DNA of 42,307 nucleotides, from assembly GCA_021298315.1 (NCBI GenBank), contig JAJTFC010000043.1:1-42307 (forward strand). The letters run 5' to 3'. Origin of the DNA: Planctomycetaceae bacterium (GTDB lineage: Bacteria > Planctomycetota > Planctomycetia > Pirellulales > Pirellulaceae). Under the pieces are notes generated by a model. It saw only the letters and a list, made by a program, of their open reading frames with translations. It ran no database searches and was not told the DNA's origin. A program made the translations under genes and the position numbers. Positions 16,188 through 38,494 of the stretch are shown piece after piece (the stretch's first letter is position 1; each line of letters begins with the position of its first letter).

Positions 16188-17450
16188 GTGTCGACGGCGA
16201 TGAGCGAAACGAATCCCAACGAACCGAGCAACCATCCGTCGATGCCGCACATGGTTGGCTCGTCGCTGCTGAGCCTACTGATCGTGCTGGTGCTTTTGAC
16301 GGTTCTCAGATACCTATTGCCACCGATGCTCGAGTCATCCAGATACTCATGGCACCGTGGTCAACTGAGGGCCGAATACGAACAGTCTGGCCAAAATCTC
16401 CAACAGATTTCCTGGGAAGGGCTTTCCCAAATCTCTCGCTTGGTCACCAAGCGGGTTCAGCCGAGCGTTGTACACATTACGGTTTCGAATCAGCAGCCTT
16501 TGGATTCGATGTTGAGTCGCAAACCTAAGAACTTGATCCCAAAGGCAGGTCCCAATCGCGAGACGCGCGCCGGTGGGGATAACGGGATCGATAGCTTTGG
16601 AGCCACTGGCCAAGGCAGTGGGGTTATTGTTAGCAGTGATGGTTACATCCTCACGAATCACCACGTTCTAAGTGGCGGTGTCGAAATCACCGTTTATCTA
16701 GCAGATCAACGCATGCTCGCAGCAGAGATTGTCGGTGTCGACAAAACAACCGACTTGGCACTTTTGAAAATCGATGCCCAAGACCTTATGCCGATCGATT
16801 GGGGCAATAGCGATACAGTCGAAATCGGCTCGCCGGTTTGGGCGGTGGGAAGTCCATTTGGACTTACAGGATCTGTTTCGTTTGGGATCCTAAGCGGTAA
16901 GCATCGCGTCGATCTAAACGCCAACCCGCAGTATCGAAGTTCCCGAGAGAGGATATCGTCGCGTTACGCAGATCTCATGCAAAGCGATGTTGCGGTAAAC
17001 CCGGGTAACAGTGGAGGTCCATTGGTCAATGGCCGAGGCGAAATCATCGGCATCAACACCGCCATCGTTGGCGAATCTTATCGCGGCGTGAGTTTTTCGA
17101 TCCCATCGAACGTTGCCAAAGAAGTGCTCGATGAGCTCATCGAGCACGGACGGGTTCGACGCGGTTGGTTAGGAGTTGAACTTGTACCAGAAATTCTCTC
17201 AGATACCGCATTGGAAACACCTGCTGTTGTCGTTCGCGCAGTGGTTCCTGATTCCCCTGCAGCCCAAGCAGGCTTGGCACCCGGCGACCGGGTGATCAAG
17301 CTCAACGAGATCGAAGTGGTTTCTGTAGAACAAGCGATCGATACAATTCGCGACACATCGGCAGGAGAATCGATCCGAGTCCATTTGCAACGCGACGGTC
17401 AATCGATCGTCGTACAAGCCACCCTAGGAGAACTAAATTTCGCACCATGA
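16188..17450 (+). CDS. HtrA/DegP-family serine protease with one PDZ domain, membrane-anchored
   Basis: The 420-residue product has a single N-terminal transmembrane helix (about 25-44), then a trypsin-like domain with triad His159 (LTNHHV), Asp189 (KTTDLALL) and Ser275 (NPGNSGGPLV). One PDZ domain follows at about 325-415 (RRGWLGVEL, SPAAQAGLAPGD). This is the DegS/HtrA arrangement: an envelope quality-control or signalling protease facing the periplasm. A GTG at 16188 with AGG 8 bp upstream was used as start; the ATG at 16200 is four codons later and equally acceptable. The stop overlaps the start of the ThuA-like gene as ATGA. Confidence 0.93.
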   Translation: MSTAMSETNPNEPSNHPSMPHMVGSSLLSLLIVLVLLTVLRYLLPPMLESSRYSWHRGQLRAEYEQSGQNLQQISWEGLSQISRLVTKRVQPSVVHITVSNQQPLDSMLSRKPKNLIPKAGPNRETRAGGDNGIDSFGATGQGSGVIVSSDGYILTNHHVLSGGVEITVYLADQRMLAAEIVGVDKTTDLALLKIDAQDLMPIDWGNSDTVEIGSPVWAVGSPFGLTGSVSFGILSGKHRVDLNANPQYRSSRERISSRYADLMQSDVAVNPGNSGGPLVNGRGEIIGINTAIVGESYRGVSFSIPSNVAKEVLDELIEHGRVRRGWLGVELVPEILSDTALETPAVVVRAVVPDSPAAQAGLAPGDRVIKLNEIEVVSVEQAIDTIRDTSAGESIRVHLQRDGQSIVVQATLGELNFAP

Positions 17451-23451: not shown

Positions 23452-26400
23452 ATGAGCATCGACAAGACCCGAGATTTACCGGAACCTGAACCAGGACAAG
23501 AATTGGATGTCCAATCGTTCGAGACCGAGCCTGCAGGGGATAGCGGAAACCAGACGAACGAACCGAGCGATTCGACGAATGTTCTAACCAGCCCAATGAA
23601 AGGCCCATCCCAGGAGCCGCCCGAGGAATCACGATTACGGAAGACCATAGGGGCATTCGAAGTCGTCGGGCTTCTAGGCAAGGGAGGCTGCGGGGAAGTC
23701 TATCGGGCTTACGACAGAAAGCTGGAACGCGAAGTCGCCATCAAATTGGTTCTCTCGAAATTTCAGGGAGATGCACTTAAACATTTATTGTCCGAAGCGA
23801 AAACCGTAGCGTCGCTCGACAGCAATCCCCATATCGTTCCAATTTATCACTACGATGTGTTGCATGAACCGGGGGAACCTCACCCGATTCCCTACATTGT
23901 ATCTAAACTGATTGATGGGTCGGATTTTAGAAAGCGACTGGTAAACAGCCGTCCGACGACAAGACAAACACTAACGATCATCAGAGATATCGCCGAGGCT
24001 TTGCATTTTGCGCACAGTAAGGGGCTGATTCACCGGGACATCAAACCAGAGAATATCCTTCTGGACAAAAAAGATCATGCGTATCTGGCAGACTTTGGAA
24101 TCGCCAAAAAAGAATCGGATCATTCCGACCGAAGCACTGCAGGAACCATTAGGTATATGAGTCCCGAGCAAGCCCGTGGAGAAGGACACTTGCTAACCTT
24201 TCAAAGTGACATCTATAGCCTAGGAATGGTCTTGTACGAAGCACTTAGTTGCTATCCGCATCGAGAAAGGGGGATTGGCCCCTTGCTCAAGTGCGTTTGT
24301 AAGGGGCAAGTCGAATCGCCTCGAGTATTCAATCCTGCAGTGACCATCGAGCAGGAACGGGTTTGCATGAAGGCACTTGCTCCAAGAGCATCGGATCGTT
24401 TCGCCACTGCCAAGGAATTCGCTGACGAATTGCAATGGTTGCTCGATCATCAGTTCGGTTCAATAGTCAATCGCAACAAAGATTCCGACGTGCCCGTGGT
24501 GCCCAAGGGTCTTCGATCTTTTGATGCAAACGACTCAGACTTTTTTCTGCGATTGCTCCCGGGACCCTACGATCGCGATGGCGTTCCTGAATCCCTCCGA
24601 TTTTGGAAGAATCGGATCGAAAGCAGCGAAAGCACATTTCGTGTAGGTTTGGTCTATGGTCCCTCCGGATGCGGTAAATCCTCGCAGATGAAGGCGGGAT
24701 TGCTGCCACGGCTTTGGGAAAAGTCGCTCGTAGTTTACATCGAGGCAACTCCAGATGAAACCGAAAGTCGATTGGAGCAAGGCGTAAAGAATCGGATCCC
24801 CAAAGCCCACGGAGAAACTCTTTCAGAGTTGATCAGCAATGTGCGCAAGGATCGCTTGGCCGGCATCAATGGAAAATTGGTATTGGTAATCGACCAGTTT
24901 GAGCAGTGGCTTGTAGCAAGAGACCAGTACGAGACCGAGGAGTTGACCGATGCGCTGCGTCAGTGCGACGGCGAGAGCGTCCAAGCTATTTTGATGGTCC
25001 GCGATGACATTTGGCTTGCAGGGAGCCGTTTTCTAAAGTGCTTAGACATTCCGATCGTCGAGCGGGAAAACAGCGCGCTGGTTGACTTGTTTGAAATCGA
25101 CCACGCCGAGAAAGTTCTCGGGCTCTTTGGTCAAGCTTACGGTAGACTCGACCAAGACCCAACGCAATGGAGTCAAGCTAACCGAGAATTCATTCGAAAC
25201 ACGGTGGATGGTTTAGCGAGAAATCGCAAGATCATTTCGGTGCGATTGGCCTTATTTGCCGAAATGATGAAAGGCCGTCAATGGGTGCCCGAAAGCTTGG
25301 ACGCTGTCGGCGGAACCGATGGGGTAGGAATCACGTTCCTCGAAGAAACGTTCAATTCTCCAACCGCACCGGCTGTCTATCGAGGGCATGCTGCGGCGGT
25401 TCAAGGTCTACTGGGGGCGTTATTGCCTGATCCCGGAGTAGAGATCAAGGGTATCAAGAAGAGCTACACCTCTCTTGCACAGGCAAGTGGTTATGCTGAT
25501 CAACCAGGTGCATTCAGCGAGTTGGTGACAATTCTTCATCGCGATTTGAAAATCATCACCGCCGTTTCAGAGGAAAAGGCCGAGCTCCCGGGTCAAGAGC
25601 TAGGCTCATTACCCTTGGGCACCGGCGCAGGTGAGCGTAGTTATCAACTCACTCACGATTACCTAGTCAGGCCGCTGCGAGAGTGGCTTACTCGCAAACA
25701 AAAGGAAACTCGCCAAGGACGAGCGGAACTGATGTTGCAGGAGAGGGTTGCTATTTGGAGGGACAAAAAGGAAAACAAGCAGTTGCCTTCGTTGCCAGAG
25801 ACTCTGAGTATTTATTACTACACTCGACCCAGTTCTTGGGATACCGACGAGCGAGCCATGATGGGCAAATCGCTTCGTGTCCACGCATCGATATGGGGAG
25901 GCGCGCTTGCTGCGATCCTAGTGACACTTGGAAGTGTTCTATTTTACACCCTTAACGAAAAATCAGGTCAGCTAGTAGACAACCTCGTTGACAGTGGACA
26001 GGGTGCCTCGATCGCGTTTAACATCCGTGATCTTCGCGGTTACCCAAAGTGGTTGGTGCATCGGCACCTGAAAAGGAAGGCCGACGAATTAAAGTCAAAG
26101 CCGAACGACGACCAAAAGAGTTTAGCCCTCAGAATCGCAATGGATTTCTTCGGTCTTTCCAATAGCTTGAACGATCCTTCTGAAAAACTCGTCGACTTGC
26201 TCAATCAAACAAAATCCTCCGACAACGATCATTCAACAGAAGAGGCAAAAGCGTCATTTAAGCTACTGCGCAACGATTCGCTGAACGTCATCTTAGCGAT
26301 CCACAATCAACCCGAGCAGTTGAAAGAAGCATTCGAAAAGCTTAAGCCAAACGCCATCAATACCGATGCCCAAAGGTATATCCGTTGGCGTAAGCAGGCT

Positions 26401-27735
26401 CGTATAGCCATCGCCTCATTGATCCTTGGCAATAGCCAATTCGCCAAAGAACTTTGCGATACGAAACAAAGCGATCTTGGCCCCAGAAGCACTTTCATCG
26501 ATGAGTTCAAAAACTGGCAGTTCGAAAGAATTGCGACTGACTTTCAGGTTGAGCAACTGATGGTTGGTTACGGTACCCAATTAACCAGCCTTGAAACGCT
26601 TATTTCCGTGCTCGGTCAGGATAAATCAGACAATTCAATCGATCTGATGAGTGCGATCTGTCTCGGACTCGGCGGAATCGATAAGGAACTCTTTCCTGCA
26701 GACCTCAGCTTTCTCAACCCCATCAGGAACAAACTCTATAAAGAGCACCGAAGCGCATTGATTCACAGCTCTTGTCAATGGCTTCTCGATACGTGGAGTA
26801 TCCAACCAGCCAGTGAGCAGGCATCGAGTGAGCAGGCATCGAGCAACGCAACTCCACCCCAGGACGCTCAGTGGGATGATTCTCTCGGTATGGTCTTCTT
26901 GAGATTTGAATTCCCCGAGATGGATAAAAGAATCCACCGCGAGATGTGGATAGGAGCTACCGAAATAGGACATCAGATCTTTGAAGAGTACCTCGATGAC
27001 CTCATTTCCGATAAACAACAGATTTTTCAGCGAAATCCGAGGTATCTGCCGATCGAAAAGTGCAAGCAATGGTTGCTAAAAAAACCCAACCCAATACCTA
27101 TGAGCAGAAAGCCAGTACCAAAGTTGCCTTGGGGGAATGCAACCTATTACGACTCGCTACGCTTTTGCAATTGGCTCAGTCTCATGTACAAGCTGGATCC
27201 ATGCTACGAGTTCATCGAGGAAAACACCGATGCGGAGGATCCAGATGGCCAATTCGAAGAGTGGAAAGAAATCCAGTTCAATGAGGATGCAAACGGTTTT
27301 AGGTTGCTTCGTAAATCGGAATGGGAAGTGATTTGCAAAGGAACAACAAATACTCGATTCCCAATGGGGAGCTTTATGGCGAAAGACGAGATCCTCGAAC
27401 AGTACATCTACTGCACGGAGCGATACCGTCGAGAGGAACCTGGGAGAATTGGACAGACGCGACCAAATCAATTTGGGTTCTTTAATTTGCTCGGGAACAC
27501 GGCCGAATGGATCGTGTCTGATCAACAAACTCAGGAGACACTTAGTCCTTTCAGCGGGTCGCTCATCGGCGGAAGCTTTGGAGACAGGATCGACAGCTTA
27601 GTAGCCAAATTCGATCCTGCGAATGGCCAATGGAGCCCATGGGAAATTTCGTCATCGTCGCTGTGGGGTCAAGGAATCAACAATAAGACGCGAGGGCTTC
27701 GCATCGCGGTTCCAAAAATCCCCTCGAAAAAGTAG
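23452..27735 (+). CDS. Membrane-anchored Ser/Thr kinase - nSTAND ATPase - SUMF1-like fusion protein
   Basis: The 1427-residue product has four parts. Residues 66-335 are a PknB-type kinase: glycine loop GKGGCGEVY (76-84), Lys98 (VAIK), catalytic HRDIKPEN (Asp196), DFG 214-216 and MSPEQ. Residues about 370-745 are an nSTAND NTPase: Walker A GPSGCGKS (403-410), Walker B LVIDQFEQ (Asp481), and the closing motif QLTHDYLVRPLREWL. A single transmembrane helix lies at about 813-835. The remaining ~590 residues, predicted outside, hold a helical region and from about 1140 a SUMF1/FGE-like domain (DSLGMVFLRFE, FGFFNLLGNTAEWI, GGSFGD). The FGE catalytic cysteines are not seen. A two-copy 15-bp tandem repeat (26812-26841) encodes the linker SEQASSEQASS. 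It probably senses an outside signal and relays it inward or the reverse. It heads the three-gene cluster with the caspase-like gene. Confidence 0.9.
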   Translation: MSIDKTRDLPEPEPGQELDVQSFETEPAGDSGNQTNEPSDSTNVLTSPMKGPSQEPPEESRLRKTIGAFEVVGLLGKGGCGEVYRAYDRKLEREVAIKLVLSKFQGDALKHLLSEAKTVASLDSNPHIVPIYHYDVLHEPGEPHPIPYIVSKLIDGSDFRKRLVNSRPTTRQTLTIIRDIAEALHFAHSKGLIHRDIKPENILLDKKDHAYLADFGIAKKESDHSDRSTAGTIRYMSPEQARGEGHLLTFQSDIYSLGMVLYEALSCYPHRERGIGPLLKCVCKGQVESPRVFNPAVTIEQERVCMKALAPRASDRFATAKEFADELQWLLDHQFGSIVNRNKDSDVPVVPKGLRSFDANDSDFFLRLLPGPYDRDGVPESLRFWKNRIESSESTFRVGLVYGPSGCGKSSQMKAGLLPRLWEKSLVVYIEATPDETESRLEQGVKNRIPKAHGETLSELISNVRKDRLAGINGKLVLVIDQFEQWLVARDQYETEELTDALRQCDGESVQAILMVRDDIWLAGSRFLKCLDIPIVERENSALVDLFEIDHAEKVLGLFGQAYGRLDQDPTQWSQANREFIRNTVDGLARNRKIISVRLALFAEMMKGRQWVPESLDAVGGTDGVGITFLEETFNSPTAPAVYRGHAAAVQGLLGALLPDPGVEIKGIKKSYTSLAQASGYADQPGAFSELVTILHRDLKIITAVSEEKAELPGQELGSLPLGTGAGERSYQLTHDYLVRPLREWLTRKQKETRQGRAELMLQERVAIWRDKKENKQLPSLPETLSIYYYTRPSSWDTDERAMMGKSLRVHASIWGGALAAILVTLGSVLFYTLNEKSGQLVDNLVDSGQGASIAFNIRDLRGYPKWLVHRHLKRKADELKSKPNDDQKSLALRIAMDFFGLSNSLNDPSEKLVDLLNQTKSSDNDHSTEEAKASFKLLRNDSLNVILAIHNQPEQLKEAFEKLKPNAINTDAQRYIRWRKQARIAIASLILGNSQFAKELCDTKQSDLGPRSTFIDEFKNWQFERIATDFQVEQLMVGYGTQLTSLETLISVLGQDKSDNSIDLMSAICLGLGGIDKELFPADLSFLNPIRNKLYKEHRSALIHSSCQWLLDTWSIQPASEQASSEQASSNATPPQDAQWDDSLGMVFLRFEFPEMDKRIHREMWIGATEIGHQIFEEYLDDLISDKQQIFQRNPRYLPIEKCKQWLLKKPNPIPMSRKPVPKLPWGNATYYDSLRFCNWLSLMYKLDPCYEFIEENTDAEDPDGQFEEWKEIQFNEDANGFRLLRKSEWEVICKGTTNTRFPMGSFMAKDEILEQYIYCTERYRREEPGRIGQTRPNQFGFFNLLGNTAEWIVSDQQTQETLSPFSGSLIGGSFGDRIDSLVAKFDPANGQWSPWEISSSSLWGQGINNKTRGLRIAVPKIPSKK

Positions 27736-27774
27736 ATCCAATAGGCTAATAGAGACAAATTTGAAGGATGGTCA

Positions 27775-27804
27775 TTGACGCTTTTGTCGGTCGCTGGGGA
27801 TAAT
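27775..27804 (+). promoter_or_regulatory. Sigma-70-like promoter before the 27855 gene
   Basis: TTGACG (27775-27780) and GATAAT (27799-27804) are separated by 18 bp, each differing from consensus by one base. It sits about 50 bp before the ATG of the unrecognised exported protein, so that gene and the caspase-like gene can be expressed apart from the kinase gene. Confidence 0.6.
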
Positions 27805-27854
27805 GACGCGTCTGTCAGATTACTAGATGCCCCTATGTTACTCGGAATATCGAA

Positions 27855-29072
27855 ATGATGCAGTATCGACTTGGCTGGGTGTTGTCCTATGCTCTTGTAA
27901 CAATCCTGGCTCTACTGTTCTCCAATCTCTCGCCAGTCCTTAGTCAAGATGGGTTACTCGAAGACACCGCCAGGCAAGCCAGTCGGCAATTTGCTCAAAA
28001 ACTCACTACGGCAATCGATCAACTCGCCAAAGGACAGGGAGCTGAGATCGGGAAAGTAGATATCAAGGTGCAGGGCCGTCCGGCAACAGCACATCTGCAG
28101 CATGGGATTATCCAATCCTCGATTGAAAACTATCTTAATGAACAAAACCGTTTCCTGAAGGGCTCCGATGAAATTGCTGAGATTAGTTTTACGTACAGCC
28201 CATCGAATGGCAAACAACCATCTACCTTGACCATCGAATTGATTCAGTTGGTCAATACAACCACCAATGCAAAAAGAGGTATACCTCAGGAACGTTGCAA
28301 AGAAACGCAGCCCGTTATGGACGTTTCCGGAGCCCAACTCGCTATCAATTCTTTTGGAAACACCAGCGAGAATCTCGAGTCTTTCTTTGGCAACAGGAAT
28401 AACCTCAAGGTTGTTGAGCAACTTACCAAGCCGCCATCGAAGAAATTGCGTGCGGAGTGGAAAGACGAATATCTTTTCGCCAAAGACCCAAGAAATGAAA
28501 CCCTGGATCAGAAGTTCGGATTCCGACTTGAGTACGAATCAGGAGAGTTCATCGTTCCCGAAAACCAGGATGGTATACCCGTTCATTTTATAGACGCAAA
28601 TAGGCCTTTTCTCGTTGGTATCAAAAATAACACCGCTAGCGATTTCGCGTTTGAAGTGCTCATCGATGGCTACCCATTCTTGATCAATCGAAAGCCAAAA
28701 GAACATAAGGTGCATCCTTATTTCGTATTCGGTAAGGAGCAGAAACATAGCATAGGTTGGATTGTCTTCGATCCTGACAAGGATAAAAAATACATCGAAC
28801 GATTTCTTACCCTCCAAGATCGCCCGTCCTCTTCAAGCCAAGACGAAGGAACGATTGTAGCAAGAAGCAATATGGACACCTCGATGGCTGGATCTGTCAC
28901 GGTGTGTATCTACAGAGTCGAAAAGCAAACGCCCAAGGGGAATGCGAAGATATGGCTTGGAAAGCCAACTGGACGCAAGTTTGATCCCATAGACGATCTC
29001 CAAGCTGTCGGGTACCCGAAGGAGCCCATCAGCCAAATCGTGCTCAAGTACGAAAAGAAAAAACAGAAGTAA
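27855..29072 (+). CDS. Exported protein of unknown function
   Basis: I do not recognise the family. The 405-residue product has a signal peptide (VLSYALVTILALLFSNLSPV, cleaved near LSQDG), a helical first third (residues about 35-100, QASRQFAQKLTTAIDQLA), and a beta-rich C-terminal half. The latter contains DANRPFLVGIKNNTASDF followed by FEVLIDGYPF, HSIGWIVFDPDKDKKYIERF and SVTVCIYRVEK. That layout faintly recalls DUF4384-like domains, which often accompany caspase-like proteases, but I cannot confirm it. It starts with two ATGs (27855, 27858). It has its own promoter-like sequence and sits 32 bp before the caspase-like gene, so it is probably co-expressed with it and may be a partner or target. 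Confidence 0.75.
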   Translation: MMQYRLGWVLSYALVTILALLFSNLSPVLSQDGLLEDTARQASRQFAQKLTTAIDQLAKGQGAEIGKVDIKVQGRPATAHLQHGIIQSSIENYLNEQNRFLKGSDEIAEISFTYSPSNGKQPSTLTIELIQLVNTTTNAKRGIPQERCKETQPVMDVSGAQLAINSFGNTSENLESFFGNRNNLKVVEQLTKPPSKKLRAEWKDEYLFAKDPRNETLDQKFGFRLEYESGEFIVPENQDGIPVHFIDANRPFLVGIKNNTASDFAFEVLIDGYPFLINRKPKEHKVHPYFVFGKEQKHSIGWIVFDPDKDKKYIERFLTLQDRPSSSSQDEGTIVARSNMDTSMAGSVTVCIYRVEKQTPKGNAKIWLGKPTGRKFDPIDDLQAVGYPKEPISQIVLKYEKKKQK

Positions 29073-29104
29073 AATGGGAATCAAACTTACTTGGAGATCA
29101 TTTG

Positions 29105-30964
29105 ATGTTTGGTTTCTTGTCTAAGGTCAATTTCGCCAAATGGATTCATCTTATCTTGATTCCAATTTGGATCGAATTTTCGACCACAAAGTGCGATGCT
29201 CAACCAAATGTTGGTCGACGAACGGCACTCCTAATCGCTTGTCAGGATTATCAGCCTCAGTTGGAACAGGTTGGGCAGAAGAAACTCGACTCCCCTCGCA
29301 AGGACATGGCTCTTCTTGAGAGGGAATTGAAGCACCTGAATTATCAAGTCCGACGAATCGAAGGCGATTCGACCGCTGCCTTGAGCAAAAGCCAGATTGT
29401 CGATCAGATAGAGAAGTTCATCGGCGACATTCAAATCCAGGACGACGTCCTTATTTATCTTTCGGGTCACGGCGTTCAACTCTACAGTGATCGAAACGAC
29501 GGGTTGTACTTCGTGCCCGAGCAAGCAAGTCTTGAAGATGTATCAGGCCTCGAAGATCCTGGTGATGGGTTCTACATCGATAACGGTTTGATATCGATTG
29601 CATGGATTGCAGACCTTCTTGACAATCGCCAAGCCAACAATCGCGTGATGATCCTCGATTGCTGTCGAAGTAAGGCCAAGCAGGAAAACAAGATCGGAAA
29701 GAAGAAACCCAGAACCTCCCCAGCCAAGAGAGTCAATATTGTTTATGCAGCCTCTGAGGGGCAAGCTGCTTTTGAATCTGCAGATGTTGATTTAAATATC
29801 TTGGATATCGATGGCTTTGAGCGCAAACAGGTGCGCAGTAAATTCACAGCGAATTTGATCAAATACCTGCGGGGGGAATACAGCCAAGACAGCTATAAGA
29901 CCGACGCGTCTGGAAACCGAATCCTCGAGCTTGATGATGCTCTGAACCAAATCGGGAACAACCTTAGTGATCAAGCCCCAATTTCGGCTGGCAACACTAA
30001 ACAATTCACACTAGGTACACCGCCACCTTACACATGGGATATACAGCAATACACCGCTAATCTACAACCGCGTGAAAAAGTTTCGCTAGGAGCACTCGAA
30101 CCTTTGGAGTTCCTCCTGGTCAACCCCATGGGTATAGAGAACAAAAAGCTGCAGTTTTCAGACAATAAAAAGTACGAAAGGACCTCGAACCCAGTCAATT
30201 GCGACCTGCAAATGCCATTCTATTTGTCTGTTACAGAAGCCTCTTGCCAGAATTGGATCGATTGTCTTGAGGATCCAATCGCTATTACATATCTAAACTC
30301 CATCCAAGCGCCCTCGAATCTTCGAACAGATCTCCTTAATCGATTCAAAAAACCATCGCAAGACCTTAACTTGCCGGCCCCATGCACTTGGCCCGAGGCG
30401 ATTTTGCTATGCCAGTTGATGACGAAAAAGGTAGATCGAAACACGGAAGGTTTCTACAAAATCTGCCGTCTTGAATTTTCAAAAAATCCACCACGAATCA
30501 CAGGAATCGAGTACGAGTTCCGACCAGATGCCTTTGGGTTTCGACTTCCTGCAGAAGCCCAGTGGCACTGGGCAGTTTTTCAAGACAAAGACCCCCTCGA
30601 AATCATCAAAGCAGCAGGAGGTAGAGTCAGGGCACTTCAAAATGGCGTAGAGATTCCAACTGTATCTGTCGGCTTAAACGATCCTAGTGAGCAATTGACT
30701 TCCGGTTTCCGCTATGCGTTAGGCAATATGGCCGAGTGGCTTGCTGACGATTGGATCCGCACCGATTCCATTAGAGTCGTAAAGCCTATTCACAGTCCAA
30801 GTAACTGTGGTCAGCAGAAGAAACTAGGTGACAAGTTACTCAAGGGCGGAGGTGTTTTGGACAACATCACCGACCAAAGACGTCAAAGCAAACCTGGCGT
30901 ACTCGACAAAGATCATGGCCTGAGGGTTTTGTACCAACCATCCCCTCAGAAATCGAAACTCTGA
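29105..30964 (+). CDS. Exported caspase-like (C14) protease with C-terminal SUMF1-like domain
   Basis: The ATG at 29105 has GGAG 8 bp upstream and gives 619 residues; a TTG one codon earlier is less likely. A signal peptide (KWIHLILIPIWIEFSTTKC) precedes a caspase p20-like domain: RRTALLIACQDYQ, catalytic His122 in IYLSGHGVQ, and Cys187 in MILDCCRS (DxC arrangement). The caspase core ends by about residue 310. The C-terminal ~270 residues show SUMF1/FGE-like features: PFYLSVTEASCQNWIDCL, FGFRLPAEAQWHWAV, RYALGNMAEWLADDW and LKGGGV. The FGE cysteine pair is not visible near its C-terminus. An exported caspase-like enzyme is unusual; most bacterial ones are cytoplasmic. It probably works with the kinase-STAND-SUMF1 protein upstream, which has the same C-terminal domain type. 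It converges on the next gene with a 9-bp gap. Confidence 0.88.
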   Translation: MFGFLSKVNFAKWIHLILIPIWIEFSTTKCDAQPNVGRRTALLIACQDYQPQLEQVGQKKLDSPRKDMALLERELKHLNYQVRRIEGDSTAALSKSQIVDQIEKFIGDIQIQDDVLIYLSGHGVQLYSDRNDGLYFVPEQASLEDVSGLEDPGDGFYIDNGLISIAWIADLLDNRQANNRVMILDCCRSKAKQENKIGKKKPRTSPAKRVNIVYAASEGQAAFESADVDLNILDIDGFERKQVRSKFTANLIKYLRGEYSQDSYKTDASGNRILELDDALNQIGNNLSDQAPISAGNTKQFTLGTPPPYTWDIQQYTANLQPREKVSLGALEPLEFLLVNPMGIENKKLQFSDNKKYERTSNPVNCDLQMPFYLSVTEASCQNWIDCLEDPIAITYLNSIQAPSNLRTDLLNRFKKPSQDLNLPAPCTWPEAILLCQLMTKKVDRNTEGFYKICRLEFSKNPPRITGIEYEFRPDAFGFRLPAEAQWHWAVFQDKDPLEIIKAAGGRVRALQNGVEIPTVSVGLNDPSEQLTSGFRYALGNMAEWLADDWIRTDSIRVVKPIHSPSNCGQQKKLGDKLLKGGGVLDNITDQRRQSKPGVLDKDHGLRVLYQPSPQKSKL

Positions 30965-31560: not shown

Positions 31561-33522
31561 TTACTTGGCAATGGGTTTTCCAATGACCGAATGCTGTGCA
31601 TTGTGAGTCGCACTCGAGGACTGCATCGCAACCCGCTGAACAGCATCGGAAATCGCATCTTGGGATGTCGCCGCTTCATTGATGTACACATTGCAATACT
31701 GCAATAGCGACCCCTTCTCAAGATTGACATTCCGGATCGAAAGCACATACTCGATCTCAGCTTGGTGATACCGGATCGTTGCATCGAGCAGTCTTCGTTG
31801 GGTTTCCAAAACCACATCCAACGCAGTCTCGGATTGCTCTTCGTTGAGTTTTTTCTGCAAGGCATCAAGCTGAGTCTCGATTTGTTCGCGCCGCTGCTTC
31901 TGCAAGTCAACCAACTCATAAGCTCTCTTGGTCTCATTGACTGCATTGCTTATGCCTAAATGAACGCCTCGTTCTTGCTCTCGGAGAATGTCCACTTCTT
32001 TGGCTAGAGCCAGTTGGGAATATCTAACGGCGGAATTGCCACGGCGGAATCCGACCGGAGCAAGGTACTCGATTCCAACCTGCCACTCTGGGAAATCCCC
32101 ATTGAACATGCTGCTAACGGCTGAGTCAGGGCCGGTTAACTGGCCAAAACCGGGCAAATTGTTTTTGCTTCCACCCATACCCCTTAGGCGGAACGTATTG
32201 ACCAAATCCAATTGGGGTTTCAGGAAGTTCCTATGTCCTATGAGTTCCAACTCACGCTGTTTGATCACCCAGCGCTGTCGACGTAACTCTTCGCGGCCAT
32301 TGAGTGCTTCCTGCACTAAGAACTGATAATCGTAGTCAACCTTGGCCACAGTAGGTTTATCGATAGGTCGCACCAGCTTTCCGTCGTTGATAGGCAGTCC
32401 CATGAGCAAGCGTAGCTTGCGTTCACAGACGCGAACCCCACCGTTGCCTCGAAAGGCTCCACCGGTAGTGCCGTTGTAAGTCCTTGTACCGTCGATAGGT
32501 CGCCCGTTGAGGGACTCGACAATGTCGGCTTGAAACCGGATCACCTGCTCTGTCGCCTGGGCTCGATCCGCTTTCTGTACTTCTCTTAATCCAATGCTGT
32601 TTGCGTACTCGGCGGCGATATCTCGAACCATGATTCGGGCTTCAAGATCGCGATAAGCGTAGTAGAGATCCCAGTAGGCGTTCTCAACTTCCGCCACATA
32701 GTCTCGGACGGATCGCTCAAAATCAACCAAGGCGATGTCGGTTCGAACTCTTGCCAAAAGTACGCCATTGAGTTGACCGGGGATCGCATTGGGTCCCGCG
32801 ATCATATTGTATTGACTACCGGCCCCTTGGAGTAATGGTTGTCGAATCTGTGCTTCGACGTAATTTTCCCAGGAATAAGGGAGGAATGAGTTGGTGACCT
32901 GGTTATTGCGATCGTAGATCGAAATATTTCTAAGGCTAAACAGGCCACCTGTAGCCGAACGCTTGGATACACCAAACTGCGTATTGCTCAGATCCTGCTG
33001 GAGAAAACCACCCTGACCATAGAACTGATTGTTGAACTTGCGATCATTTTTATCATACATCGACGAAGCGAACGCATTCGCGTCGAAGGCACTCAGGGCC
33101 GCTTCCTCGCCAAATCTTGGATCGGTGAAAGTCAACGCAGGATCTGCATTCGCACCCGACAATCCAGGATATCGAAGAACACTTACCCCTAAATCTCTCA
33201 TGATCGTCGAAGACGATAACGCTTGAGCAATGCATTCCTGGAGAGAGTACTTCAGTACATGCTCATCGGTCAACTTCCCGTCATCGATCAAAGTATCGAG
33301 ATCTCGCGGGGAGTGCGCCTCGGCATAGGGGTTCAGTTTGCAATCAATAGCAGGCTCGGTGGGCCTTATTTGCGTCATATGCTGATGATAGACTGCCGGA
33401 TCGCCCGAGAGCTTCAGTTTGACAGGCTTCGTTTTACTTACATGACAACCAGTCGCTGGCACAACTCCGATCGCTAAACTGGCGATCACAAGTCGAACTA
33501 GGTTTCGTTTTTGACTTGACAT
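31561..33522 (-). CDS. TolC-family outer-membrane efflux/secretion protein, probable lipoprotein
   Basis: The protein has about 653 residues from the ATG at 33522 (in-frame ATGs at 33552 and 33615 are alternatives). The chosen start gives MSSQKRNLVRLVIASLAIG with a possible lipobox ending ATGC. The long helical body has two outer-membrane efflux repeats typical of TolC: SLQECIAQALSSS, QIRQPLLQGAG, FERSVRDYVAEVENAYWDLY, then QVGIEYLAPVGFRRGN, SNAVNETKRAYELVDLQKQR and LLDATIRYHQAEIEYVLSIRN. Trimers of such proteins form the outer-membrane tunnel for type I secretion or RND efflux. It is transcribed away from two HlyD-like genes and the M50 fusion across a 475-bp region, so they probably form one machine. 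It exceeds the usual ~450-500 residues because of an N-terminal extension. Confidence 0.9.
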   Translation of the reverse strand: MSSQKRNLVRLVIASLAIGVVPATGCHVSKTKPVKLKLSGDPAVYHQHMTQIRPTEPAIDCKLNPYAEAHSPRDLDTLIDDGKLTDEHVLKYSLQECIAQALSSSTIMRDLGVSVLRYPGLSGANADPALTFTDPRFGEEAALSAFDANAFASSMYDKNDRKFNNQFYGQGGFLQQDLSNTQFGVSKRSATGGLFSLRNISIYDRNNQVTNSFLPYSWENYVEAQIRQPLLQGAGSQYNMIAGPNAIPGQLNGVLLARVRTDIALVDFERSVRDYVAEVENAYWDLYYAYRDLEARIMVRDIAAEYANSIGLREVQKADRAQATEQVIRFQADIVESLNGRPIDGTRTYNGTTGGAFRGNGGVRVCERKLRLLMGLPINDGKLVRPIDKPTVAKVDYDYQFLVQEALNGREELRRQRWVIKQRELELIGHRNFLKPQLDLVNTFRLRGMGGSKNNLPGFGQLTGPDSAVSSMFNGDFPEWQVGIEYLAPVGFRRGNSAVRYSQLALAKEVDILREQERGVHLGISNAVNETKRAYELVDLQKQRREQIETQLDALQKKLNEEQSETALDVVLETQRRLLDATIRYHQAEIEYVLSIRNVNLEKGSLLQYCNVYINEAATSQDAISDAVQRVAMQSSSATHNAQHSVIGKPIAK

Positions 33523-33997
33523 CCGTGACTCGGCAATCGAAGACGTTCTCATCGTTGGTATCCTTACCGTCGATTGGTCGCTCGTACTATTCGGTGTGAA
33601 CCATGCACTCGGCATAATCCCACCATTTGTTATCGGATCAATGGTTAGTTTCTGTACATCTTTCGCGCAATAAATTTTTAATCATCAAACCCAATTCTGT
33701 TTGAATCTTCGCGTGGACACCACGTTCAGTCCTGAGGATCACAGAAACCCAGAAAAAACCGCCAAATTGAACGAGTTTCTGACCTGTCGTGTTTTGCCTC
33801 AAAACACAATGGGAGGATTAGCTAGATTCTAATGAATAAAGCAAATGCACCAATTCTAAGCTCTAATCTGGGTTCTTCGCGAGAGTCATCGAATATGAGC
33901 TCACTGGATTGCCGATTATTAACCCCATGAAAATCGTTTTGTCGGTTTTTCCTTCCAAGTCCCCGATGATCGCGATCACCATCGCACGCCTCCAAGG
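33523..33997. other. Divergent control region of the export locus
   Basis: The 475-bp gap (or about 380 bp if the TolC gene starts at 33615) holds the promoters of the TolC and HlyD-like transcripts. It is AT-rich around 33665-33690. A perfect short inverted repeat GTGTTTTG-CCT-CAAAACAC lies at 33789-33807. No gene was found. No promoter pair is clear enough to call. Confidence 0.5.
33789..33807. promoter_or_regulatory. Inverted repeat, possible operator
   Basis: GTGTTTTG-CCT-CAAAACAC, 8-bp perfect arms with a 3-bp centre, in the control region between the divergent TolC-like and HlyD-like genes. It is too near to neither start to act as a terminator. It could bind a dimeric regulator, but no regulator gene is adjacent. 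Confidence 0.35.
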
Positions 33998-35422
33998 ATG
34001 ATTTCAAATCTATCGATCGAGCAAATCGATGCACTACTACCTAGGGTAGAGCTACTGGTCGAGCAACTGTCTCGGGCCGATTCCGACCGAATCGCTAACC
34101 AAATCCTGGTCGATGGGCTCAGTGACCTGCTTGATGCCCATCGAGTATCACTGCTGGTTTCCCATCCGGCTATCGAACCGCCATGGACACTCGAGGCTGT
34201 CAGTGCATGCCCAAGGATTGACCGAAATTCCGAAGCAGCTCTTCAGATTAGCAATCTGGCCAATCGCTTGCTTGTAGTCTCGAAGGATGAATCGAAGACC
34301 AATCTACAATCTCCCAAGGCCTTTGACGATTCGGCCAAAGCGATTGTATGGCACTTGCCCAGTAGTCCGCAGCAAACGTCGATTCCCGAGGCCTTGTTGC
34401 TCGAATGGATCGACCCCAGCCAGCATAACTTTGCACCCGCAAGGCTCAAGTATGTGGCGGGCCCAATCGCCCAAGCTTGGCGGATGAGATCCGAGCGAAT
34501 GGCTCCAAAGAAGGGCCAAAGTAAAATTCTGGCTAATCTCACTAAGAGACGCTGGCTCTTTCGTTCCCTGGCATTCTGTGCATTCGGGCTGCTTGCCAGC
34601 TTGCCAATAGACTTCTATATCACTGCCGATGGTTACCTCGAGCCTAAGGGCCGCCACTCCATCTATGCCCCTTGCGATGGTTACCTGGATTTCATTTCGG
34701 TTCGCGATGGCTCCGAATTGACGCAAGGTCAAACGATTGGAAAAATGCAATCCCCCGAACTTGATCTGCGAATCGAAGATGTCTTAGGGCAAATTCGAAG
34801 CAATTCCGAGAAGAGAAACGGGTTCAAGGTTGCTTTGAATCAAATCATCGTTGGCTCAAAAACGGCCTCGGTCGAACAGAATCGAATTTCGTCTGAAATT
34901 CTCCTCGCCGATCTTCACGAAGAGAATCTCAAATCCAAACTTGCGTTCCTGCGCAAGGAAGAGTCCAAATTGCAACTTCTTTCACCGATTCAGGGTACAG
35001 TAAGCGCTAACTCTTTTCTCGAGGGATTGCAAAGTAGACCACTACGGCGTGGGGATCCTCTTTTTGATGTGTTGGATGTCAACGGCCCCTGGCATGTTGT
35101 CTTACGTATCAGCGATGCCGATTCCCTTTTGGTAAAAAATGCTGTAAGCAACGGTACCAAAACGGTTCGAGCCAGTTTCGAAAGCCTACCAAACCGCGTC
35201 TTTAAAATCGATTTGGAACGTTGCAACGATATCATCGAGAACCCCGACAACCTCACCCCTTTCGTCCGAGCCTACGCAAACTTTTCGCAATCCGACGCCG
35301 AATTGTTCTTCGTAAATGCGAAAACGAAGGTATTGATTCCGATGGGAAAAAGACCTGCTTGGTACGTCTGGCTAAGACCGATTTGGGAAACGATGCAAAA
35401 ATACACTCTGCTTTGGAAGTGA
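33998..35422 (+). CDS. HlyD-like adaptor with N-terminal GAF-like region
   Basis: The 474-residue product begins with a soluble alpha/beta region (1-165; IDALLPRVELLVEQLS, LDAHRVSLLVSHPA) that resembles a GAF-type sensor domain, followed by one transmembrane helix (about 187-206). The periplasmic part has two lipoyl-like half-motifs, HSIYAPCDGYLDFISVRDGS and LLSPIQGTVSAN, separated by a short helical hairpin (about 252-325), then a beta-barrel-like stretch (WHVVLRISDADS). This is the membrane-fusion protein layout that bridges inner-membrane pump and TolC. The ATG at 33998 has a poor ribosome site. It is the first gene of a tight trio: 15 bp to the next HlyD-like gene. Confidence 0.85.
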   Translation: MISNLSIEQIDALLPRVELLVEQLSRADSDRIANQILVDGLSDLLDAHRVSLLVSHPAIEPPWTLEAVSACPRIDRNSEAALQISNLANRLLVVSKDESKTNLQSPKAFDDSAKAIVWHLPSSPQQTSIPEALLLEWIDPSQHNFAPARLKYVAGPIAQAWRMRSERMAPKKGQSKILANLTKRRWLFRSLAFCAFGLLASLPIDFYITADGYLEPKGRHSIYAPCDGYLDFISVRDGSELTQGQTIGKMQSPELDLRIEDVLGQIRSNSEKRNGFKVALNQIIVGSKTASVEQNRISSEILLADLHEENLKSKLAFLRKEESKLQLLSPIQGTVSANSFLEGLQSRPLRRGDPLFDVLDVNGPWHVVLRISDADSLLVKNAVSNGTKTVRASFESLPNRVFKIDLERCNDIIENPDNLTPFVRAYANFSQSDAELFFVNAKTKVLIPMGKRPAWYVWLRPIWETMQKYTLLWK

Positions 35423-35437
35423 GATTTCCTTACTATC

Positions 35438-36328
35438 ATGAAACCGCAATCCCATCACAGGTTACCTTGCAACTGTTTGCTAACTGCAATCGTATGGACA
35501 ATCGCTCCGTGGGGTTCCCATGCACAGGAATCCATCGAGTTGCAGTCGCCGATCCTCAAAACGATTCAAGTCGCTGCCATTGCTGCGGAGGTCCAAGGGG
35601 CCCTCAAAGAAGTCCATGTCGAGGAGGGGTCAAGAGTTTCTTCTGGCGATATTCTTGCTAGAATCCATGACACAAGTTCTCGTTTGATGCTCCGCAAGGC
35701 TGAGGTCGCAGTCTCGCAAGCCAAGCAGAAAAAAACCAGCGAAATCGACATCAGTCTCGCGGAGAAAAGCATCGCAGTAGCAGAAGCAGAACTCAATCAT
35801 GCTCTCAATGCGAACAAGGAACTTGAAGGCGTATACGCAGCCAAAGAGGTGCGGCGATTAAAATTAGTCTACGAGAGGAATCTGCTTGAGCTTCAGAGAG
35901 CAAAATTCACCAGGGATCTATTGGACTTTGAAATCGAATCGACACAGCTCGAAGTGGATTCCCTTAAAGAATCTATTCGTAAACACCAGGTAACCTCACC
36001 CATCCAGGGTGTAGTCGTTTCCGTGGAACGGAAAGTTGGAGAGTGGGTTAATCCAGGTACCACGGTTGTACAAATCGTCGAAATCGGACGGCTGAGAATC
36101 GAAGGATTTCTTCCTGCTTCGTTAGCAAAGCAAGAACTCATCGGTCACCAAGCAACGGTGGTTGTCGATCTTGGAGATGGAGACTCTTTGACTCGTACGG
36201 CGAAAGTAACCTTCGTCGACTTTGAGACAAACCCGCTGAATAATCAAGTCCGCGTCTACCTGACGGTCTCAAACCAAGACGGAAGGCTTCGACCCGGGCT
36301 AACCCCAAATGTCTCGATAAGCAAGTAG
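35438..36328 (+). CDS. HlyD-type periplasmic adaptor protein
   Basis: The 296-residue product has a signal peptide (LLTAIVWTIAPWGSHAQ) rather than a membrane anchor. It has the classic membrane-fusion order: lipoyl half 1 IAAEVQGALKEVHVEEGSRV (48-67), a coiled-coil hairpin (about 80-185, SRLMLRKAEVAVSQAKQK and LLELQRAKFTRDLLDFEIE), lipoyl half 2 VTSPIQGVVVSVERKVGEWV, and a beta-barrel ending RPGLTPNVSISK. It should dock between TolC and an inner-membrane component. It starts 15 bp after the GAF/HlyD gene and ends 3 bp before the M50 fusion gene, so the three are surely co-transcribed. No RND or ABC partner is encoded nearby. Confidence 0.92.
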   Translation: MKPQSHHRLPCNCLLTAIVWTIAPWGSHAQESIELQSPILKTIQVAAIAAEVQGALKEVHVEEGSRVSSGDILARIHDTSSRLMLRKAEVAVSQAKQKKTSEIDISLAEKSIAVAEAELNHALNANKELEGVYAAKEVRRLKLVYERNLLELQRAKFTRDLLDFEIESTQLEVDSLKESIRKHQVTSPIQGVVVSVERKVGEWVNPGTTVVQIVEIGRLRIEGFLPASLAKQELIGHQATVVVDLGDGDSLTRTAKVTFVDFETNPLNNQVRVYLTVSNQDGRLRPGLTPNVSISK

Positions 36329-36331
36329 CCT

Positions 36332-38494
36332 ATGCTTCGCACCGATCTGGAGTGGATTGAGCAACGAAACGCTTCGGGGTGGATTGTTCGAGATCCACTC
36401 TCCGAGAGCTTCTATTACCTCAGCGCAGCAGAGTATATCGCTGCGAAAAGCCTCGACAAGAAAATGAATCCAGCCGATCTGGCTGTCCTCTTAAGAGATC
36501 GATTCTCCATCAGTAACCCTATGGAATGGTTACGAGTCTTGGTCATCAAATTGCACCGAGCCCATCTGGCAAAACCAAGGCTTGATTCTCAGATCAATTC
36601 GCTCGGAGAACTAAATAAACCCACTCACCACTGGTTGACAAGAACACTACTGAATCCCTTCTCGATAAAGATTCCGGCCTTTAGGCCTCGGGAAAAAATG
36701 CCCTGGGCAAAGGTCCTCTCGGGAATCTTTTTTACCAAGCCGTCTGTGATGGCCTTCCTGATGCTTTGGCTAGCTCTCTTGGTGCTGGTGGTTCAGTCCT
36801 GGATTCGAGACCCACACGCCATGATCCAGTCGATTCGAATCCTTCAAGCGGGAGGATGGTTTTGGATTCTCCTGACTTTTGGCTGCATGAAATCATTTCA
36901 CGAACTGGGACATTTTCTTGCATGCCATTACTTTGGCGCAAGGTGTAAGGAAGTTGGAATCATGCTGCTGTTCTTTACGCCATGCTTGTATTGCAACGTC
37001 ACCGACTCCTGGAAATTGCCCTCTAAGTGGCAACGCATCGCCATCAGCCTTGCCGGTATCTACTTCGAATTGATCATTTCTATCCTTGCTGCACTGTGCT
37101 GGCTGAATCTCAGTACGGGATTTGGCAAATCCCTTGCGGGGTTAATACTCATTGCATGCACACTCAACACCATCATCGTGAATGGTAACCCTTTGCTACG
37201 ATACGATGGATACTATGTTTTAAGCGACCTTTGGGAAGTTCCAAACCTCTCATCGCAAAGCTCTACAGCTCTTTGGGACTACTGGATTTGGTTCCTGGGT
37301 GGCCGTGGAATATCTGTCGGTAACTACTACACTTCGAAAACCCATTGGCTTGCTGCCTATGGTCTACTGGCAAGTGTTTATCGATTCTCGGTGTCAGTAA
37401 CCATCCTTTGGTTTGGGTGGTTTCTTCTCAAGCCATTTGGACTGGGTTTTCTAGTCATCACGGCTGCTACTGCGTTAGGAATTGGCTTGGCATACCAAAC
37501 AAAACAGTTGATCACCTGGATGCTGCTGGAATTCTTCACTGCAAAACCGATTCGAGCGGCTCGATTGTTGATTGCCGTAGGATTATTCCTAGGACTTATC
37601 ATCGGCGGGTTCCTCCTTCCCCTGCCCGATTTATCTCTCCAGAGAGGATTTTTTGTCCACAGGCAATCTCAAACGCTCTACGCTCCAGAGAATTCTTGGA
37701 TTAGGCAATTTCCTCGATCCCATGAGGAGATTCCAATCGGACATGCCGTCGTTGAACTGGATTCCCCGGAAGTGAAACTACAGCATTTGGAATTGCAACA
37801 CAAAATCGATGAGCTCAAGTTTGCACTTGAATTGTTTCGCAAGATTGCCGCTAACGATAAAAACCTCGCTCAAGAAATCCTACTCAAAGAGTCTCAACTC
37901 AAGGAGCTTGAGTCTCAAGCATCGATAGTCCAGCAGCGAGACCAAGCAATGCAGATGATTGCTACCCAGCCGGGTTGTTTCATCGCTAATACATCTGGTC
38001 AAATCATGTCCCTAACTTCACCAATCCATCGGTTTCAGGACTCCAATCAAACCACCGAGGCTCGTATCGGAAAACCGATCCAACGAGGTGACATCCTCGG
38101 TTGGTATGTAACGCACGAAGATGCCTTGCTCGTAGAGGCCTATGTGCCAGAAGAATTAACTCAAAGACTGCATGTGGGCTCAATTGCAGCATGCAAGCCC
38201 GACTGCGATCCAGACGAGACATACTATGCTAAAGTCGATTCGATCAATCCCGTAGCTACCTTCGACTTACCCGAGCCTCTTCGTGGAGATTCCTGGATTC
38301 TGGGCCTTCAGGATCCCTCGGGACAATGGAAACCCATCCAACCGCTGTGCCGCGTAACCCTCAATTTAGATTGCTCACTGAGTGGGTCGATTAGGGGAAA
38401 TCTAGCGACAATTCACTTTCACACGCCACCCCGCTCCATCGCATCTCGAATCCAGGAATACCTCTGGAAAAACTTCCGCTGGAACCTGAACTAA
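36332..38494 (+). CDS. PqqD-like / M50 membrane metalloprotease-like / HlyD fusion protein
   Basis: The 720-residue protein has three parts. Residues 1-95 resemble the PqqD winged-helix peptide-binding fold (GWIVRDPLSESFYYLSAAEY). Residues about 140-450 are a multi-pass M50 (site-2-protease-type) domain with HELGH at 190-194 and the downstream ligand motif NGNPLLRYDGYY (Asp292). The C-terminal ~230 residues are HlyD-like, with a coiled-coil hairpin (about 485-540), a half-lipoyl segment (QRGDILGWYVTHEDA) and a barrel. It could be a protease that trims exported peptides, or the inner-membrane platform of the export machine in place of an ABC transporter. The zinc-site residues look intact. It is the third gene of the trio and is followed by the giant surface protein. 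Confidence 0.88.
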   Translation: MLRTDLEWIEQRNASGWIVRDPLSESFYYLSAAEYIAAKSLDKKMNPADLAVLLRDRFSISNPMEWLRVLVIKLHRAHLAKPRLDSQINSLGELNKPTHHWLTRTLLNPFSIKIPAFRPREKMPWAKVLSGIFFTKPSVMAFLMLWLALLVLVVQSWIRDPHAMIQSIRILQAGGWFWILLTFGCMKSFHELGHFLACHYFGARCKEVGIMLLFFTPCLYCNVTDSWKLPSKWQRIAISLAGIYFELIISILAALCWLNLSTGFGKSLAGLILIACTLNTIIVNGNPLLRYDGYYVLSDLWEVPNLSSQSSTALWDYWIWFLGGRGISVGNYYTSKTHWLAAYGLLASVYRFSVSVTILWFGWFLLKPFGLGFLVITAATALGIGLAYQTKQLITWMLLEFFTAKPIRAARLLIAVGLFLGLIIGGFLLPLPDLSLQRGFFVHRQSQTLYAPENSWIRQFPRSHEEIPIGHAVVELDSPEVKLQHLELQHKIDELKFALELFRKIAANDKNLAQEILLKESQLKELESQASIVQQRDQAMQMIATQPGCFIANTSGQIMSLTSPIHRFQDSNQTTEARIGKPIQRGDILGWYVTHEDALLVEAYVPEELTQRLHVGSIAACKPDCDPDETYYAKVDSINPVATFDLPEPLRGDSWILGLQDPSGQWKPIQPLCRVTLNLDCSLSGSIRGNLATIHFHTPPRSIASRIQEYLWKNFRWNLN

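Follow-up and report, generated by a model that had tools for sequence, protein, structure and literature searches.

A divergent caspase cassette of Planctomycetia with a kinase-nSTAND1-FGE gene in the place of its cytochrome-like partner

We analyzed a stretch of 42,307 nucleotides (nt) from a Planctomycetaceae bacterium (contig JAJTFC010000043.1 of assembly GCA_021298315.1), referred to below as the window. Three long open reading frames (ORFs) of this stretch are considered here: K, encoding a Ser/Thr kinase joined to an nSTAND1 NTPase, a predicted transmembrane helix and an FGE/SUMF1-like domain; M, encoding an apparently exported protein of an unnamed family; and C, encoding an apparently exported caspase with an FGE-like domain. 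Profile searches and comparisons of gene order show M and C to be, as judged from their sequences, divergent members of a cassette that recurs in planctomycetes. Its most common order is CYT - M - caspase, with all three products apparently exported; CYT is a ~590-residue protein that carries a PSCyt1 (planctomycete cytochrome c) domain. By its gene order, the window is a variant of this cassette with K in the place of CYT upstream of M. The recurring link is that of M with a caspase, not that of K with a caspase. The source genome, which belongs to the class Planctomycetia, is a draft of 5.35 Mb in 205 contigs (~90% complete), and the window lies on its contig C12.

The M family and its cassette

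M matched nothing in Pfam (best chance-level E value of 0.066), NCBIfam or PADLOC. Used alone as a query, window M detected no relatives in 59 relatives besides its own genome, and none in the contigs of that genome. The family was reached only through a neighboring set of genes in the same genome, the locus L039, where a 375-residue protein encoded beside a caspase on contig C168 aligns end to end with window M at 24% identity; a BLASTP comparison of the two yielded an E value of 0.092 only. With the L039 protein as the query, relatives were found in 41 of the 297 genomes sampled from the class. We then used a 53-member profile, which includes window M and the L039 protein; it matched in 47 of 241 genomes of the window's own family at an E value of 1e-3, its own genome matching by construction. 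When window M was removed, the resulting 52-member profile still scored it at 19.4 bits (E value of 1.3e-4 among 4711 ORFs; the last match up to an E value of 10), and the best of 1000 shuffled versions of window M reached 4.7 bits. Window M also keeps those positions that are the most conserved in the family (N258, D271-G272 and G301-W302). These comparisons show that window M is, at the level of its sequence, a very divergent member of the M family.

We then compared two sets of genomic stretches. The M-selected set comprises 73 stretches with 92 M genes, fragments included: 48 came from the class-wide search (all of its rows except C168 and G200:C30) and 25 from part of the places found by the family-wide profile search. 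The K-selected set comprises 59 stretches with 62 kinase-nSTAND genes, 54 of which carry an FGE domain according to our own profile; it was drawn from 95 rows, with ~30 of them, almost all of lower rank, omitted. In both sets, each related genome and each repeated cluster is counted on its own, so that the stretches are not independent events and any p-value is a guide only. A caspase was present in 57 of the 73 M-selected stretches vs. none of the 59 K-selected ones. It lies directly downstream of M on the same strand for 39 of the 92 M genes, adjoins M in another arrangement for nine and is fused to it for two (50 next to or fused in total), and is found further off in the stretch for another 22. 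The CYT gene was present in 59 of 73 M stretches and one of 59 K stretches. CYT adjoins 55 of the 92 M genes on the same strand: it is upstream for 50 (one with a second copy downstream), downstream only for four, and in one case the two matches coincide in a single ORF. Two CxxCH motifs were found in 53 of 64 CYT proteins and none in four. The complete order CYT - M - caspase on one strand, with intervening genes allowed, was observed in 32 of the 73 M stretches, and the source genome has its own CYT-M-caspase-FGE set at L039 (G000:C168, 1577-9391).

The caspases of the cassette vary in their partner domains, which are FGE, WD40 repeats (L250, L189) or others. In L166, the large protein encoded downstream of M matches our own caspase profile; Pfam assigns WD40 repeats to it and lists no caspase at an E value of 0.001. 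Several other arrangements were seen. At positions 2393-8832 of L178, genes for a kinase, M and a CHAT-TPR protease follow one another, with CHAT in the place of the caspase; caspase and M matches fall within a single ORF in L181 (9238-11265) and L194 (2150-4216); and tandem copies occur in L170 and L173. L039 also holds a second caspase of 880 residues with two FGE stretches, and the ORFs next to it resemble what we take to be insertion-sequence genes. In total, caspase matches were found at three places in the source genome, and contig C168 carries two of these.

Structural comparisons gave hints of the fold of M. A model of the M relative of Singulisphaera acidiphila, built from seven sequences, reached a predicted local distance difference test score (pLDDT) of 72.7 and a predicted template modeling score of 0.75. 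Foldseek searches with this model returned weak matches, none with an E value of 0.001 or lower: the top one was an LptE chain (E value of 0.009, probability of 0.84), and others were the lipoprotein chains PelC (E value of 0.04, probability of 0.99), PqiC and CsgG and the MSP domains (beta sandwiches) of MOSPD2. At most, this hints at an envelope assembly-type protein. Sequence searches of the PDB yielded one chance-level hit only for M and no match for C.

The export and membrane topology of the three proteins were assessed from hydropathy only. M has a hydrophobic N-terminus, which is its one hydrophobic stretch, and the N-terminus of C is signal-like. We compared M proteins, K proteins and other ORFs longer than 350 residues for an N-terminal hydrophobic stretch: a loose measure detected it in 84 of 89, two of 54 and 237 of 660, respectively, and a stricter one in 55 of 89, none of 54 and 131 of 660. 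Among the 74 caspases of the stretches, a hydrophobic stretch precedes the caspase domain in 70 (56 if only the first 45 residues are considered), or in 48 by the stricter measure. M and C are thus apparently exported, and the FGE-like domain of K is predicted to lie outside the cytoplasm. This agrees with the initial annotation, which regarded M and the caspase as exported and K as membrane-spanning, to the extent that the former is apparent and the latter predicted; that annotation set the exported caspase apart from cytoplasmic arrangements, and an exported caspase is not confined to this locus, as the 70 of 74 caspases with such a stretch indicate.

K, its FGE-like domain and the organization of the locus

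The ORF and Pfam analyses recovered the cluster as it had initially been described, with the same coordinates: a kinase-nSTAND-helix-SUMF1 gene, a gene of unassigned family and a caspase-SUMF1 gene, all three long and on the forward strand (Table 1). K matched Pkinase (residues 69-268, E value of 4.5e-38), nSTAND1 (353-521, 1.5e-15) and FGE-sulfatase (7.8e-10), and it presents the motifs VAIK, HRDIKPEN and DFG as well as Walker A and B. The only 19-residue windows of K with a mean hydropathy above 1.5 start at residues 808-818. A hydrophobic stretch at a similar place (mean of at least 1.6) was found in 42 of 51 K-family proteins, with K/R residues more numerous before than after the predicted helix in 34 and equal in seven. 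Of 35 PADLOC families matching K (PD-T4-6 and other kinase defense systems), the best 25 do so within residues 55-350 only, which is mostly the kinase domain. C matched the caspase domain at residues 39-265 (E value of 9.4e-16) and, weakly, the FGE domain at residues 362-609 (3.2e-5; 24.2 bits relative to a cut-off of 23.3). It retains the presumed His/Cys dyad of caspases. The TTG at which the ORF of C starts directly precedes an ATG at 29105, which may be the true start. Because C is divergent, it found few matches as a query (one of 296 other genomes at an E value of 1e-10).

Table 1. Positions in the window of the three genes and of the features assigned to them.
Feature	Position	Strand	Basis
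K, Ser/Thr kinase - nSTAND1 NTPase - predicted transmembrane helix - FGE/SUMF1-like, 1427 residues	23452..27735	+	Pfam, motifs
Predicted transmembrane helix of K, ~residues 809-839	25876..25968	+	Hydropathy only (Kyte-Doolittle mean of 1.92 at residue 813)
FGE-like domain of K, residues 1153-1366, predicted outside the cytoplasm	26908..27549	+	Pfam
M, apparently exported 405-residue protein, divergent member of an unnamed caspase-linked family	27855..29072	+	Profile match, conserved positions
GGAG, possible ribosome-binding site of C	29093..29096	+	Read from the sequence, in the 29-nt gap between M and C
C, apparently exported caspase with C-terminal FGE-like domain, 620 residues	29102..30964	+	Pfam Peptidase_C14 and FGE-sulfatase; SGHG and DCC motifs

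Relatives of K, compared from residue 336 on, were found in 56 of the 198 genomes sampled from the class (E value of 1e-15, own genome counted). The initial annotation had expected K and the caspase to be conserved neighbors. The comparison of neighborhoods gave the very outcome that the annotation had named as refuting its proposal: none of the 62 K-family genes has a caspase anywhere in its stretch. The paralog of K in the same genome, on contig C147, has neither a caspase nor an M neighbor in its stretch. M was found in a single K-selected stretch, L061 (G200:C30, 1823-15461), from a genome of another family, in which three tandem K-type kinase-nSTAND-FGE genes are followed by M. The nearest relative of the L061 M protein (63%, in G226) sits in a CYT-M-M-caspase row of a related genome. 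It may be that K has taken the place of CYT twice, or that the end of the L061 contig hides part of the story.

Kinases are found in this place at other loci as well. A kinase gene lies directly upstream of six of the 92 M genes, and all six match the CYT profile, five with two CxxCH motifs and one with none. Overall, a kinase is joined to CYT by a predicted membrane helix in nine genes (three without CxxCH and one with a single motif). In L160, L161, L165, L166 and L167, fusions of this kind (kinase - predicted membrane helix - cytochrome-c-like domain with two CxxCH) stand directly upstream of M, and their heme-type domain would be the outer part of a membrane kinase.

The initial annotation had further proposed that the SUMF1-like domains of K and C would let both proteins recognize the same ligand or each other. 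In a tree of 87 FGE domains, K-type and caspase-type domains are separable by one change (support of 55/96), and the two domains of the window are not sisters. Their branches are the longest of the 87 (3.7 and 4.77, for a median of 0.69), and since the forks are open and weakly supported, their places in the tree are unsettled. Neither domain is among the other's 14 best BLAST lines: the K domain mainly retrieved other K domains, and the C domain retrieved weak matches of mixed type. We see no sign of close kinship or partnership between the two domains, which weakens the idea of a shared ligand. FGE/SUMF1 enzymes carry their catalytic cysteines in a motif near the C-terminus. Because the last 97 residues of K contain no cysteine and the last 90 of C contain one, outside the FGE motif, neither domain looks like an active FGE enzyme. 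Diversification of these domains by a diversity-generating retroelement (DGR) was also considered and found no support: the FGE ends of K and C were each found just once in the ~90% complete genome, with no repeats of 30 or more near these ends, and the two reverse transcriptase domains of the genome lie on other contigs (G000:C122:53209-53838 and C162:23719-24303).

The neighbors of the locus that were examined with Pfam are ordinary; they include a transketolase, a trypsin-PDZ protease, a fatty acid desaturase and an HNH protein as well as outer membrane efflux and HlyD-like proteins. This trypsin-like protease with a PDZ domain (16188-17450) adjoins a PQQ/BamB-like propeller protein (14898-16169). 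Positions 31561-38494 hold a possible secretion set, made of the outer membrane efflux protein (31561-33615, on the opposite strand), the HlyD-like protein (33998-35422) and a 720-residue M50 peptidase-like protein (36332-38494).

Possible roles of the locus

We favor, at somewhat less than even confidence, the explanation that the locus encodes an envelope-facing caspase module, in which M would be the constant partner and K a kinase-STAND receptor that passes the state of the outside to the cytoplasm. We infer for this module its export, its binding, the direction of signaling and its biological role; the cassette and the membership of M come from the sequence comparisons above. M would hold or restrain the caspase, either in the periplasm or at the outer face of the cytoplasmic membrane. 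The outer FGE-like domain of K would sense a change there, such as a bound ligand, damage or cleavage by the caspase; the nSTAND domain would then oligomerize and the kinase would phosphorylate cytoplasmic targets. The module could in this way couple envelope protease activity to a cytoplasmic response of stress, defense or self-killing. The outside-in direction of signaling is the least certain of these steps.

Several observations weigh against this explanation. No caspase was found in the stretch of 20 of the 92 M genes, and no CYT match was found in the window. K beside M is rare: it was seen at two loci overall (the window and L061), no K-type gene occurs in the 73 M-selected stretches, and the L061 contig ends 345 nt past M with no caspase start visible there. 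M, the kinase domain of K and the FGE domain of C are all unusually divergent, with the lowest scores of 95 family hits, of 54 and of 32, respectively, which could also mean relaxed constraint. Divergence extends beyond the outer parts: besides the kinase domain, the nSTAND domain of K is eighth lowest of 54, and by one of two profiles the caspase of C ranks fourth from the bottom among 32. Modeling window M together with six relatives gave a poor structure, with a pLDDT of 37. Finally, K and M are separated by 119 nt and may or may not be co-transcribed. A promoter-like site lies in this gap at 27775-27804, one of four such sites in the region vs. 8.4 in shuffled sequences.

Two other explanations are possible, and we regard each as rather unlikely. 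First, K might be an unrelated neighbor that landed here by rearrangement with its own promoter, leaving only M and C to work together. The lack of caspases in the stretches of all 62 K-family genes, the paralog on C147 without caspase or M, and the 119-nt gap are what one would expect from such an event. However, K precedes M on the same strand in L061 as well, and kinases, as fusions to CYT, fill the same place at six M loci. In addition, the genome holds three K-family and two M-family places, and we roughly estimate the probability of a same-direction adjacency by chance to be well under 1 in 100. Second, M and the caspase, with or without CYT, might constitute a housekeeping or nutritional protease unit of the envelope (e.g., for the turnover of exported proteins), rather than a conflict or death system, with K adjusting its expression. 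Planctomycete PSCyt proteins are partners of degradative exported enzymes, and the ordinary genes around the locus (transketolase, trypsin-PDZ, desaturase and efflux proteins) are in line with such a role. Some of the caspases may also be inactive, because simple patterns recover GHG in only 61 and D-x-C in only 57 of 82 caspase ORFs. Against this, the patchy presence of M (41 of 297 and 47 of 241 genomes), the tandem copies in L170 and L173 and the varied partners (FGE, WD40 and CHAT) look more like sensory or conflict systems by analogy.

A third explanation, which we consider improbable, is a cytoplasmic-type NTPase-FGS conflict system of the kind described by Kaur et al. 2021 (PMC8195603), in which K would be sensor and effector, its FGE domain would be diversified by a DGR and the caspase would be a second effector. 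That paper does describe the order kinase-nSTAND1-FGS, and the genome contains two reverse transcriptase domains, on other contigs. Such a system is difficult to reconcile with the predicted membrane helix between nSTAND and FGE, with the caspase and M looking exported, with the lack of a second FGE end of K or C in the ~90% complete genome and of repeats of 30 or more nearby, and with the lack of a caspase beside other K genes. The least probable explanation, which we think has very little chance of being correct, is that the locus is decaying and that M, K and C have lost their function and are drifting, as the divergence of M (the most divergent of 95 family hits) and the long branches of both FGE domains (the longest of 87) could indicate; against this, all three frames are long and open, kinase, NTPase and protease motifs are present, and signal-like N-termini are found.

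Extending the explanation of an envelope-facing caspase module, one could speculate, at low probability, that a c-type-cytochrome-like protein, M as a constant adaptor and a caspase, which often carries WD40 or lectin-like domains, jointly form an extracytoplasmic caspase signaling cassette of planctomycetes, which would be in its parts a periplasmic counterpart to the animal apoptosome. In the window, the cytochrome would be replaced by a membrane kinase-STAND receptor, so that a STAND protein would read the same caspase switch. A recurring, apparently exported caspase cassette with its own constant partner, sometimes tied to kinases or STAND kinases, offers a handle on the function of exported caspases. 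It sets this question in a phylum with unusual cell biology, and because M-family genes occur in named strains (Singulisphaera acidiphila DSM 18658, Aquisphaera insulae JC669 and Limnoglobus roseus PX52), testing in cultured bacteria is possible.

Comparison with known systems

Several parts of this locus are already known from the literature: kinase-nSTAND1-FGS proteins (PMC8195603), caspase-FGE proteins (PMC3501461) and a caspase system of two genes, of which the 5' one is constant (PMC7159879). In the passages considered here, the caspases that belong to bacterial conflict systems act within the cell or near its membrane. Among the open-licence papers listed by our searches, no title or start of an abstract described M or the CYT-M-caspase cassette, and no open-licence paper was found that pairs PSCyt1 with a caspase.

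The STAND NTPase-FGS conflict systems of Kaur et al. 2021 (PMC8195603) sense invaders inside the cell with an FGS domain of the C-type-lectin fold; DGRs are frequent in them and not obligatory. The initial annotation rightly assigned K to a protein type known from conflict systems, since nSTAND1-FGS proteins with an N-terminal S/T/Y kinase are listed in this paper. Like these, K has an N-terminal S/T kinase in the effector place, nSTAND1 and a C-terminal FGS. In contrast, a predicted membrane helix (based on hydropathy only) would place the FGE domain of K outside, an apparently exported M-caspase pair lies downstream, and no DGR template was found. According to the same paper these systems have an N-terminal effector or an EAD adaptor, and Pfam detected no EAD in K, M or C at an E value of 1. 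A similar comparison can be made with the DGR 6 targets of Thiohalocapsa (Dore et al. 2024, PMC10907252), which combine nSTAND1 and a C-terminal FGE sensor with a nearby peptidase, an EAD8 adaptor and a DGR. The window shares the nSTAND1, the C-terminal FGE and a peptidase nearby, whereas neither an EAD8 adaptor nor a DGR was found in it.

Two further systems resemble the M-C pair. The EACC1-caspase system (Kaur et al. 2020, PMC7159879) consists of a 5' constant EACC1 gene, whose product has one conserved central helix, and a 3' caspase with variable partner domains. The window has the same layout of a 5' constant gene followed by a caspase with a variable partner domain, and it is likewise membrane-linked. 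M differs from EACC1 in that it has a signal-like N-terminus followed by ~370 further residues without a central helix, and the caspase itself looks exported. M has no match in Pfam or NCBIfam, which may or may not include an EACC1 model, and its sole hydrophobic stretch is N-terminal; C scored 56.7 against the caspase_w_EACC1 model, for a cut-off of 140. The metacaspase-FGE proteins of Asplund-Samuelsson et al. 2012 (PMC3501461), in which FGE-sulfatase was found in 33 sequences and N-terminal helices might be signal peptides, have the same architecture as C, a caspase with the His/Cys dyad followed by FGE. However, partners resembling the M or CYT of the cassette are unmentioned in the excerpt considered here. 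The CYT-M-caspase cassettes of Planctomycetia, such as the one at L039, share with the window the order of M and caspase-FGE. The window differs from them in that it has no CYT, K stands in its place and M has diverged far.

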